Shown: one piece after another, positions 39,801 through 43,666 of the stretch | Numbering within the stretch: the stretch's first letter is position 1 | Layout of the letters: the number at the start of each line of letters is the position of its first letter | NCBI RefSeq assembly: GCF_030651595.1 | Contig: NZ_JAUSCH010000050.1 | Coordinates: 1-43,666 of the forward strand | Origin: Candidatus Oleimmundimicrobium sp. | GTDB lineage: Bacteria > Actinomycetota > Aquicultoria > UBA3085 > Oleimmundimicrobiaceae | Direction of reading: 5' to 3' | DNA length: 43,666 bases | Translations under genes and position numbers: made by a program | The notes under the pieces: model-generated | What the model was told of the DNA's origin: nothing | Database searches by the model: none | What the model saw: only the letters and a program-made list of their open reading frames with translations

Positions 39801-41003
39801 TTGTCTTGCAACGCGAGAGTTTTAATCTTAAAAGAATCCGGGGAGATAAAAAAAGCTTTTGAAAAGATAGGCGTAGATCCCATGGGCATAAAGATTATGG
39901 TTTCAAAAGCAATCTTTAGGATTATTAAACTTGAGGGATTAAATGCATGTCAGGCCAATATATTAAAGCAGGAAATGTTAGTTTGTGGTGGCGAAGTAGC
40001 CATCTCTAAAACAGTCTATAGTTTAACGAAAGAACATTCGGATGTTATTTTAATAGGAACAATTACACAGTTTGATAAGCTTTGTAAAAAATTAACCAAT
40101 CAGCCCTTCAATCTGAAGAAAATCTCAAAAGAGATTGATGAGGTTCTTAGAAATTTTGATACAAAGCCGCAAATTATCAAAGCTGGCAAATCTAAACTGG
40201 ATTTAAACGAACGCACTCACCTTATGGGCATTTTAAATATTACACCTGACTCTTTTTCCGATGGAGGCAGTTATTTTAAAACCGAAACAGCCGTTTCTCG
40301 TGGTATTGCAATGGTTGAAGAAGGGGCCGATATTATTGATGTCGGGGGCGAGTCAACTCGTCCGGGAGTAGAATCAGTTAGTTTAGAAGAAGAGTTAAAA
40401 AGGGTAATACCGGTTATAGAAAGATTGGCTTGTGAAATCAATTGTCCAATATCAATTGACACCTATAAATCCGAGGTAGCTAAAAAGGCGTTAGAAGCCG
40501 GAGCGACAATTGTAAATGATATAAGCGGATTTCAAATGGATAAAAATATGCCAAAGCTTGTTGCTAAAACGGGTGTTCCTATAATTATTATGCATATGCA
40601 AGGGACTCCGGAGATGATGCAGAAAAATCCCCACTATGAGTGCGTAATGAGGGAGATAATTTCTTTCTTAAGAGAAAAAGCCGAAGTTGCTTTAAAAGCA
40701 GGTGTCCAAAAAGACAAAATTATCATTGATCCGGGGATTGGTTTTGGTAAGACCAGAGAGCACAATCTTGAGATTATGAGAAAACTCCCGGAGTTAAAAA
40801 ACTTAGGCTATCCAATTTTAATAGGCACTTCTCGAAAATCTTTTATTGGGACAACACTTAATTTGCCCGTTGAAGATAGATTGGAAGGAACGGCTGCGAC
40901 CGTTGCATATTCTATCGTTCAAGGGGCCAATATCATTCGGGTTCACGATGTGAAAGAAATGGTTCGCGTTGCTAAGATGACCGATGCGATGGTTAGAGGA
41001 TAA
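39801..41003 (+). CDS. folP: Dihydropteroate synthase (FolP) with N-terminal extension
   Basis: A 400-residue protein. Residues about 135-400 are a normal dihydropteroate synthase: LMGILNITPDSFSDGG (141-156), IIDVGGESTRPG, ISIDTYKSEVA, IIDPGIGFGKT and GTSRKSFIG. The first 130 residues form an extra domain with ILKQEMLVCGGEVAISK; long DHPS with such a domain are known in some Clostridia and archaea. TTG start with AGGAGGG one base after folE ends. It joins para-aminobenzoate to the pterin. No folB lies before folK. Confidence 0.94.
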   Translation: MSCNARVLILKESGEIKKAFEKIGVDPMGIKIMVSKAIFRIIKLEGLNACQANILKQEMLVCGGEVAISKTVYSLTKEHSDVILIGTITQFDKLCKKLTNQPFNLKKISKEIDEVLRNFDTKPQIIKAGKSKLDLNERTHLMGILNITPDSFSDGGSYFKTETAVSRGIAMVEEGADIIDVGGESTRPGVESVSLEEELKRVIPVIERLACEINCPISIDTYKSEVAKKALEAGATIVNDISGFQMDKNMPKLVAKTGVPIIIMHMQGTPEMMQKNPHYECVMREIISFLREKAEVALKAGVQKDKIIIDPGIGFGKTREHNLEIMRKLPELKNLGYPILIGTSRKSFIGTTLNLPVEDRLEGTAATVAYSIVQGANIIRVHDVKEMVRVAKMTDAMVRG

Positions 41004-41203: not shown

Positions 41204-41695
41204 ATGGCGAAAGTTTATATTGGGCTTGGTTCAAATATCGGTGACCGGGAAGCTTATTTGCGGGCCGCAATAAGGTTGTTAAAAAAGCACAAAGATATTG
41301 AAGTTAAGAAAGTATCTTCTATATACGAAACGGAACCTGAAAACTATACTGAGCAGAGAAAATTTTACAATCTTGTTTTAGAACTTAAGACTTCGCTTCC
41401 CCCTGATGAGCTGCTTAAAATTTGTAATTTCATTGAAAGTTTACTTAAAAGAAAACGGGAGATTAAGTGGGGTCCAAGGACTATAGATTTAGATATCTTA
41501 TTATATGATGAACTTGAAATTAATGAAGAAAATTTAAAAATTCCTCATTCTCTAATGTGCGAGCGTAGTTTTGTGTTAGTTCCGCTTTTAGAAATTGCTT
41601 CTGATTTAAAACTTTCTTCAGGAGTACCCATAAAGGAATTTTTGGATAAACTTCCTCCTTTTAAAATTAAGCTAATTGGAAGAGTGGAGGAATAA
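41204..41695 (+). CDS. folK: 2-amino-4-hydroxy-6-hydroxymethyldihydropteridine diphosphokinase (FolK)
   Basis: A 163-residue HPPK transferring pyrophosphate from ATP to the pterin alcohol. The signature is KWGPRTIDLDILLYD; YIGLGSNIGDREAYL is at the N-terminus and RSFVLVPLLEIAS near the end. ATG start with AGGGGGTG. Its 3' end contains the -35 box of the panB transcript. Confidence 0.95.
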   Translation: MAKVYIGLGSNIGDREAYLRAAIRLLKKHKDIEVKKVSSIYETEPENYTEQRKFYNLVLELKTSLPPDELLKICNFIESLLKRKREIKWGPRTIDLDILLYDELEINEENLKIPHSLMCERSFVLVPLLEIASDLKLSSGVPIKEFLDKLPPFKIKLIGRVEE

Positions 41696-41705
41696 GTGAT
41701 ATAAT
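41676..41705 (+). promoter_or_regulatory. Promoter of the DUF2520-panB unit
   Basis: TTGGAA (41676-41681) and a perfect TATAAT (41700-41705) with an 18-base spacer, at the end of folK. Transcription would start near 41712 and run through the structured leader. Confidence 0.55.
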
Positions 41706-41745
41706 TTTTCAACATTATGAAATTTTAATAGTTAATGCTTTAAAA

Positions 41746-41826
41746 CCGCTTGGATCCAATGTGACCGGGACGGAAGATGGCAGTAAATTTAAATCTTCTG
41801 CGGGTTAGAAGATTTTTTTATTTTTT
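41746..41826 (+). promoter_or_regulatory. Candidate riboswitch-like attenuator upstream of DUF2520-panB
   Basis: Three mutually exclusive pairings are visible. (1) CCGCTTGG (41746-41753) pairs with CCGGG-A-CGG (41765-41773), eight base pairs with A41770 bulged. (2) CGGAAGAT (41771-41778) pairs with ATCTTCTG (41793-41800), which would be an antiterminator. (3) AAATCTTCT (41791-41799) pairs with AGAAGATTT (41807-41815), followed by a T-rich run to 41826, a terminator. Helix 1 takes the antiterminator's first bases, so binding by a ligand could favour termination. A 'pan' RNA motif with bulged A residues is known before panB-type genes, but I could not align it from memory. Confidence 0.6.
41791..41826 (+). 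terminator. Terminator hairpin within the panB leader
   Basis: Nine-base-pair stem 41791-41799/41807-41815, loop GCGGGTT, T-tract with one A. It lies before the coding start (GTG 41838), so it acts as an attenuator, not an operon end. Confidence 0.8.
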
Positions 41827-41837
41827 GGGGGTAAAAA

Positions 41838-42710
41838 GTGAAAAAAAAGGTTTCTATCATTGGCGCTGGAGTTGTCGGAACGACCGTCGGATATATTTTA
41901 AATACAAAGGGTTATGAGGTAGTGGCCATTGCTGGCAAAAGCCAAGCTTCTCTTGTTAGAGCTCGCTCATATATTAAAGGGTTGATTACTACCAATATTG
42001 TTAAGGCCGCAAGCTTAGGAGATGTAATTTTTATTACCACTCAGGATGACCAGATTGAAAACGTTTGTAAGGAAATTGCTCACAAAAATGGTTTTAAGAC
42101 AGGTGATATGGTTTTGCATATGAGTGGGGCGCTTTCAATAAAAGTGCTCAAAAGCGCGGATGAGGCAGGAGCGTGTATAGCAAGTATTCATCCGATACAA
42201 TCTTTTGCTGACATCGATTTGGCAATAAAACAATTGCCCGGAACTTATTTTGGAGTTACGGCCGGTGATGAGATTTGGCCCTTTGCTTTTGAATTAGTAA
42301 AAGACCTTGGCGGTGAGCCAATTTTAGTAAAAGATGAGGATAAGTCCTTATATCATGCCGCTGCTTGCGTGACTTCAAACTATCTGGTGGCACTTTTACA
42401 TTTTGCTCAGGAAATCTATTCGAGCATCGGAATATCGCAGGAAGTTTCTATTAAGGCCATTTGGCCTCTTGTTGAAGGGACGCTTAAAAATATAAAACAG
42501 AAGGGTACTTCTCAGGCGCTGACCGGGCCAATTGCTCGCGGAGATTTAGGTACTATTGAAAAACATTTATCTTCTATAAAATTGAAGTTGCCTGAGGTTT
42601 TAAGTCTTTATGAGAAATTAGGTAATTATACGGTTGATGTGGCGCTTAAAAAGGGAAGCATAGATGAGAAACAAGCAGACAAAGTTAAACAACTTTTAGA
42701 TAAGGAGTAG
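41838..42710 (+). CDS. Rossmann-like/DUF2520 protein
   Basis: A 290-residue two-domain protein. The N-terminal NAD(P)-binding fold has SIIGAGVVGTTVGYIL, and the C-terminal DUF2520 domain has YHAAACVTSNYLVALLHFAQ and PLVEGTLKNIKQKGTSQALTGPIARGD. The fold resembles 3-hydroxyacid and ketopantoate-type dehydrogenases, and it sits just upstream of panB in this operon, so a role as the ketopantoate reductase of pantothenate synthesis is a reasonable guess. The same gene is found at this place in many Actinomycetota. GTG start with TTGGGGGT upstream. Confidence 0.87.
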   Translation: MKKKVSIIGAGVVGTTVGYILNTKGYEVVAIAGKSQASLVRARSYIKGLITTNIVKAASLGDVIFITTQDDQIENVCKEIAHKNGFKTGDMVLHMSGALSIKVLKSADEAGACIASIHPIQSFADIDLAIKQLPGTYFGVTAGDEIWPFAFELVKDLGGEPILVKDEDKSLYHAAACVTSNYLVALLHFAQEIYSSIGISQEVSIKAIWPLVEGTLKNIKQKGTSQALTGPIARGDLGTIEKHLSSIKLKLPEVLSLYEKLGNYTVDVALKKGSIDEKQADKVKQLLDKE

Positions 42711-42713
42711 AAG

Positions 42714-43517
42714 ATGAGAGAAAAAATTACCGTTACCAAACTTGTAGAAATAAAACAAAGGGGCGAAAAAATTACCATGCTAACTGCCTACGATTATTTG
42801 ACCGCGAAACTTTTAGATGAAATGGGTGTGGATTTAATTTTAGTCGGCGATTCTTTGGGAATGGTTGTTCTTGGATACGAAAACACCTTGGCTGTTACCA
42901 TGGATGACATGATTCATCATACTAAGGCGGTTGCAAGGGGCGTTAAATCGAGCATGGTCGTTGGCGATATGCCTTTTATGTCATACCAAATAAATGCAGA
43001 CAAAGCTCTTAAAAACGCCGGGAGATTTTTGCAAGAGGCTGGTGCTCAAGCGGTAAAACTTGAGGGCGGTGAAGAGGTGGCGGATAAGGTTGATAAAATT
43101 GTTAAGGCCGGAATTCCCGTGATGGGACACCTTGGGCTTACTCCTCAATCGGTACATCAGATGGGTGGTTTTAAGGTTCAGGGCAAAGAGGATAAACAAA
43201 AGAAAAAATTACTTAAAGATGCAAAAATTCTTGAGGAAGCAGGTGCTTTTTCAATTGTATTGGAGTGTGTTCCCAAAGAACTTGCGGCAGATATTACCAA
43301 AGCGGTTTCGATTCCTATTATTGGGATTGGGGCCGGATGTGAATGTGACGGGCAAGTTTTAGTTACTCAAGATATTTTGGGAATGTATGATAAATTTGTG
43401 CCGAAGTTTGTTAAACAGTACGCGAAATTAAACAGTGAGATGAAGAAAGCGGTATCCGACTACATCTCGGAAGTGAAAACGGGTAAATTCCCCTCCGAAG
43501 AGCATGAATTTCATTAG
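42714..43517 (+). CDS. panB: 3-methyl-2-oxobutanoate hydroxymethyltransferase (PanB)
   Basis: A 267-residue TIM-barrel enzyme forming ketopantoate from 2-oxoisovalerate and methylenetetrahydrofolate. Visible are [39 protein letters not shown] with metal Asp, [10 protein letters not shown] and [20 protein letters not shown]. Length is normal. It starts 3 bases after the DUF2520 stop. panC and panD do not follow within the window. The folate genes upstream supply its cofactor. Confidence 0.96.
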
Positions 43518-43666
43518 TAAAAGAAAGGGTAAAGGGGAAAAAGTCACCAGTTGTCAGCTACCAGGAAAAACAAACGATGTATGAATAAAAATCTGGCAAG
43601 TGGTAAAGAGTAAAAAACAAAAATAGTACAAAAGCATTTTTAATTTTATATTATAGTTTTTCATTC
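43518..43666. other. Intergenic end of window
   Basis: AT-rich, with the repeat word cluster at 43543-43566 and no gene or terminator that I can support. Confidence 0.5.

Follow-up and report, generated by a model that had tools for sequence, protein, structure and literature searches.

The junction between a folate gene cluster and a pantothenate operon in Candidatus Oleimmundimicrobium sp. raises the question of what kind of RNA occupies the short leader between them, and whether it controls the genes behind it. The window, that is, the whole stretch of 43,666 nucleotides analysed here, is contig C50 of a 1.63-Mb source genome, of a genus placed by the NCBI taxonomy under Actinomycetota, class Ca. 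Aquicultoria. A sequence-only reading of the leader had proposed an attenuator-like element, either a new class or a kin of the pan RNA in a lineage from which none had been reported. The pan motif was described in 2010 in Chloroflexi, Firmicutes and delta-Proteobacteria (Weinberg et al. 2010, PMC2864571); its published context consists of pan genes only, and a dimeric protein-binding motif was proposed because most copies are tandem (PMC2864571). The literature searched names neither a ligand nor a binding protein for pan RNA, nor a mechanism, and the later papers found there present pan solely as an annotated leader.

Operon and promoter

The window carries folE-folP-folK, the leader, a Rossmann-like/DUF2520 gene and panB, after which the contig ends. 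The upstream neighbour folK (41204–41695, plus strand; TIGR01498, 146.6 bits) is conserved, and the genes behind the leader encode a PanG-like ketopantoate reductase with Rossmann-like and DUF2520 domains (41838–42710, plus strand; PF10728, 127 bits; PF10727, 61 bits) and PanB (42714–43517, plus strand; TIGR00222, 376 bits against a cutoff of 207.6). DUF2520 proteins of this kind are interpreted as PanG ketopantoate reductases, following Miller 2013 as cited in PMC4572677. The first gene is preceded by the ribosome-binding site GGGGG (41827–41831) and opens with GTG at 41838 (together 41827–41840, plus strand), and its product is 79% identical to the DUF2520 protein of the nearest named relative, Candidatus Oleimmundimicrobium americanum (L014), with an Actinomycetes MAG (L015) also close. 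Positions 43198–43666 overlap the end of contig C27 of the same assembly (L073) at 96% identity with a 7-base tandem difference (TTGTCAG), the assembly break being probably due to strain variation; C27 then continues with panC, panD, nadA and a nadB-like gene. Across both contigs the operon reads panG-panB-panC-panD-nadA-nadB, and the leader thus has the pan-operon position of RF01749, with panG-panB in the window and panC-panD on the overlapping contig. Further upstream, FolP (39801–41003) has about 130 additional N-terminal residues ahead of the pterin-binding domain, as do class relatives.

A promoter at 41676–41705 (plus strand), spanning the folK stop codon, consists of TTGGAA, an 18-nt spacer and the extended -10 element TGATATAAT (41697–41705), with 10 of 12 consensus matches; the TATAAT named by the sequence-only reading lies within it at 41700–41705. 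A promoter scan of the leader gave a score no better than chance. The extended -10 is kept at the same place in four family relatives (G001–G004), as TGNTATAAT or TGNTATATT, and a similar TGNTATACT was seen by eye in the leaders of G010, G012 and G024.

Identity of the leader hairpin

The helix at 41746–41773 (plus strand) is formed by CCG/CGG, the bulged A41770, CUUGG/CCGGG, the bulged A41754, UC/GA and a 6-nt loop, so that the bulged-A helix had been placed correctly but holds two bulged As rather than one. This succession of 3 bp, bulged A, 5 bp, bulged A and 2 bp defines the pan motif. In a direct Rfam scan of the leader, the covariance-model check suggested with the original proposal, RF01749 matched with 34.2 bits (E 3.2e-4; next-best family 0.26), 2 bits short of its gathering score of 36.2 bits, which is a curation threshold and not a biological feature; the shortfall probably arises because the Rfam model covers two hairpins and the window holds only the second one. 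No second geometry match with a plausible stem was found in 41401–41880, and the tandem pair, stated for 'most' pan copies, is not strictly defining. At gathering thresholds, the whole window yielded three tRNAs and nothing else; a sodium riboswitch match at 41803–41839 (17.9 bits against a threshold of 40.5) was attributed to chance, as were other weak Rfam matches.

When both strands are counted, the window holds the 3-A-5-A-2 geometry 19 times, for the most part in A/T-rich stretches, and the geometry alone is therefore no evidence. Short A/T-rich repeats at 1325–1370 (AAATTTTTAAG) give overlapping hairpin-like matches. The folding energy of the leader is likewise unremarkable (z = -1.5 and z = -1.4), so that single-sequence folding proves nothing and the case rests on comparison with relatives.

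Distribution in Ca. Aquicultoria and beyond

A family model, R1, built from ten leaders, found one good site in the source genome (48.9 bits, E 6.9e-10), a second site on contig C84 (14.6 bits, E 2.5) being taken as chance. Sites at E<=1.1e-6 were found in 11 of 36 Ca. Aquicultoria genomes from five families, together with a twelfth site bearing a long loop insertion; ten of these built the model, and the independent finds are G012 and the twelfth site only. The typical position in the class is between folK and panG(DUF2520)-panB-panC-panD, with folK upstream in 10 of the 11 genomes. The genes behind the leader vary: panG-panB-panC-panD-nadA-nadB in G001, panG-panB-panC-panD-nadB-nadC in G004, panB-panC-panD in G011, panB-panC-panD-nadB-nadC in G016 and panG-panB-panC-nadB-nadC in G010, where panC, panD, nadB and nadC of relatives were identified by eye on the basis of N-terminal sequence; PF02445 confirmed NadA in 10 of 10 genomes searched. 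The leader of G003 (L021) has additional sequence between terminator and panG that is missing from other close family members.

Two class relatives exceed the RF01749 gathering score at the same place, with 50 and 45.3 bits, and show the classical tandem form, in which a first hairpin repeats the geometry (UGGUGGUGAUC/GACACCAACCA in G020, from the geometry scan; recognised by eye and with one mismatch in G011). Single hairpins nevertheless predominate over the tandem form in Ca. Aquicultoria. The leader of the window thus resembles RF01749 in its stem with two conserved bulged As ahead of panB/panC/panD operons, and departs from it in having one hairpin, in panG (DUF2520) as the first gene, in its sub-threshold score and in its lineage, Actinomycetota being absent from the 2010 list. 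Taken together, these comparisons support a single-hairpin pan RNA, as the first of the two original proposals had it, and speak against a new class.

The near complete genomes G006, G007 and G009 are without panB and panC, also without the pan hairpin, and are probably pantothenate auxotrophs; in G005, G030 and G031, panB is present with no clear pan hairpin ahead of it. Elsewhere in Actinomycetota (396 genomes), R1 gave weak matches only (E 2e-4 to 1e-2), the best two outside the class (G233 and G042) having no panB nearby and being taken as background. A hairpin pattern scan of viral contigs gave at least 120 matches, taken as chance, and no panB relatives were found in viral contigs. Thermomicrobium and Parabacteroides plasmid panB regions, considered as possible outgroups, leave little or no space for a leader.

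A more distant comparison is offered by a pan leader on an Enterococcus faecium plasmid (L078:1232-1313; RF01749, 41.7 bits), which precedes the same panG-panB-panC-panD order as in the window lineage and shares the 3-A-5-A-2 geometry (AAGCUCAUAUC/GAAUGGGACUU), but has few stem letters in common with the window, no obvious terminator, and a start codon close behind. This plasmid is conjugative and carries the whole panG-panB-panC-panD operon with its pan RNA leader, and panB is found on more than 100 Enterococcus plasmid records.

Covariation of the pan helix

Covariation among the leaders of relatives, which the sequence-only reading had named as a test, was found for the pan helix in both sets examined. 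Among ten leaders, 100% of cells are paired and three pairs are changed on both sides, a result matched by 0/500 and 1/500 shuffles. With the hairpin of the Enterococcus faecium plasmid, a Firmicutes member above the Rfam threshold, and the first hairpin of each of G011 and G020 added, the set holds 12 distinct hairpins; loops, which vary in length and sequence among relatives, were removed so that rows align ungapped, and the geometry itself dictated the layout of the three added rows, whose loci the Rfam model had found beforehand. Here 99.2% of cells are paired and 10 of 10 pairs are doubly compensated (0/500 shuffles), with slid controls far lower, so that the same stem as in RF01749 covaries in either set. 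All ten pairs covary and the only invariant columns are A41754 and A41770. The closest genomes keep GGGACGGAAGATGG (G003 reads GAGACGG...), and farther out only GRGACGG is kept, with G010 as the exception.

Terminator and antiterminator

Behind the pan hairpin lies an intrinsic terminator (stem 41791–41815, T-rich run to 41826, plus strand), which a simple terminator scan missed on account of the A/U-rich stem; in 12 of 12 leaders the pan hairpin is followed by another hairpin with a T-rich tail, whose stem is weak in G012. The candidate antiterminator (41771–41800, plus strand) pairs 41771–41778 with 41793–41800 through eight pairs, one of them G-U. Both structures are found as predicted by the sequence-only reading, the terminator in the minimum-energy fold, but its further claim that only one structure can form at a time does not hold: pan helix and terminator are both formed in that fold without overlap, and only the antiterminator excludes both, competing in the window with the whole terminator and only three basal pairs of the pan helix. 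In growing-chain folding, antiterminator and pan helix are near-equal at 41806 (-14.7 versus -13.8 kcal/mol), and at 41820 pan helix plus terminator lead by 1.8 kcal/mol (-18.2 versus -16.4 kcal/mol); near-equality until the 3' arm of the terminator appears would suit a switch tipped to termination by a bound effector.

Among the relatives, the pan 3' strand and its flanking bases are complementary to the 5' arm or loop of the terminator (unbroken Watson-Crick runs of 11 pairs in G011, 10 in G016 and 8 in G010), in a register that varies from family to family. Since purines abound in pan 3' strands and pyrimidines in terminator arms, some complementarity is generic, and native combinations were compared with swapped ones. 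With arms from an automatic terminator finder the swap test was null (24397/40320), the automatic limits being too short and the 11-bp match of G011 lost. With arms set by eye, the longest Watson-Crick run was reached in 109/40320 permutations and the energy in 1784/40320; with a fixed rule-based 54-nt window, the corresponding figures were 63/40320 for the longest run and 641/40320 for duplex energy. Compared with shuffled arms, those of G004, G016 and G020 were not better. Native thus exceeds swapped complementarity in two of three test definitions, which lends the predicted antiterminator pairing moderate support, no higher because the arm definition was changed after the null result.

Mechanism and alternative explanations

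A pan hairpin of conserved geometry stands ahead of the pan operon with a terminator behind it, and it is rather probable that this single-hairpin pan RNA controls panG-panB-panC-panD-nadA-nadB by transcription attenuation, in keeping with the attenuator-like leader first proposed: the predicted structures are present, and relatives carry the pan hairpin at the same place with a terminator-like hairpin behind it. RNA polymerase would start from the extended -10 promoter, where folK ends, and make the pan hairpin first. When pantothenate, CoA or a related signal is plentiful, a putative effector, for which a protein is a likelier candidate than a small molecule, would grip the hairpin through the two bulged As; its 3' strand would then be unavailable, the terminator would form, and transcription would stop ahead of panG. 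When no effector is bound, the pan 3' strand may instead form the antiterminator with the terminator's 5' arm, and the operon would be read. The direction, in which the bound state is off, is inferred from the antiterminator competition. In terminator/antiterminator leaders in general, PyrR-type attenuators being one example, terminator and antiterminator exclude each other and an upstream hairpin decides; the leader of the window would be alike, with an exclusive terminator and candidate antiterminator and an upstream hairpin proposed to decide.

That a chance hairpin merely precedes an ordinary terminator, with no regulation, would agree with the weak folding z-scores and the chance-level promoter scan; R1 E values of 7e-10 to 1e-6 in 11 genomes, the conserved neighbours and the double compensation of all pairs argue against it, and it is refuted by the covariation, leaving it a negligible probability. 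It is also quite unlikely that the hairpin acts on translation or mRNA stability, as a site where a protein binds or the RNA is processed, with the terminator merely trimming read-through from the fol operon. The position of the terminator between folK and panG, with an own promoter upstream of the hairpin, would fit such a role, as would the Enterococcus plasmid leader, which has no evident terminator and a start codon soon after the pan match; yet the promoter lies upstream of the terminator too, so that an unconditional terminator would silence the pan operon as well, and in the second and third swap tests the terminator arm matches the pan strand of its own leader better than swapped ones, which speaks against such a role.

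An explanation that retains the same terminator logic, and which we regard as unlikely, takes the hairpin for the aptamer of a true riboswitch, with pantothenate, pantoate, CoA or a precursor as its directly bound ligand. The place ahead of biosynthesis genes and the terminator-type expression platform are as expected of a riboswitch, and CoA riboswitches are missing among known classes, CoA being named among the ligands without one (PMC9971707). The element measures only 28 nt, with a variable loop and two unpaired As that never change, which is small for a metabolite aptamer; the discoverers of pan preferred a protein-binding motif of dimeric form (PMC2864571), and most genomes here make do with one hairpin. 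The predominance of single hairpins in the class also implies that the RNA here can do without a dimeric arrangement.

Pan leaders ahead of NAD genes

In G012 and G024, sister species of one genus, a pan hairpin with terminator directly follows folK (L051, G012:C11:87617-87652, minus strand; L024, G024:C45:1806-1841, minus strand) and the leader stands ahead of nadA-nadB(-nadC), with no pan gene in the operon. In both genomes nadA is single-copy and the pan genes are found at another locus, which in G024 has a second pan leader ahead of it; the contig of G012 begins too near panG to show a leader there. One locus of G024 (L056, G024:C23:11125-11182, minus strand) has the hairpin ahead of panG-panB-panC-panD, with core pairs and both As retained and a long loop insertion that can fold into its own hairpin. 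The leaders ahead of nadA in the two species are 93.8% identical, against 85–86% at the third codon positions of neighbouring genes, a mild sign, from one comparison only, that they may be under constraint.

These cases raise the possibility, advanced here tentatively, that pan RNA in this class jointly controls the synthesis of pantothenate and of NAD: the undivided operon runs on from the pan genes into nadA-nadB, and where it has split, in G012 and G024, a pan leader stands before nadA. Provided that the nad copy is functional, whatever is sensed has to fit either pathway; candidates include an adenylated cofactor or the supply of aspartate, which is consumed by both PanD and NadB. Were joint control true, one hairpin would be enough, weakening the need for a dimeric binder.

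The pan RNA, found beside vitamin B5 genes, has been an orphan since 2010, and the leaders described here extend it to a lineage outside the 2010 description in a single-hairpin, terminator-linked form that likely acts by attenuation. The two-hairpin Rfam model misses this form at its cutoff, and pan RNA is thus probably under-counted. Leaders with one hairpin, a terminator and a candidate antiterminator provide a compact, testable system that predicts the direction of control, and a pan leader ahead of nadABC, in one genus, would narrow the hunt for the signal.
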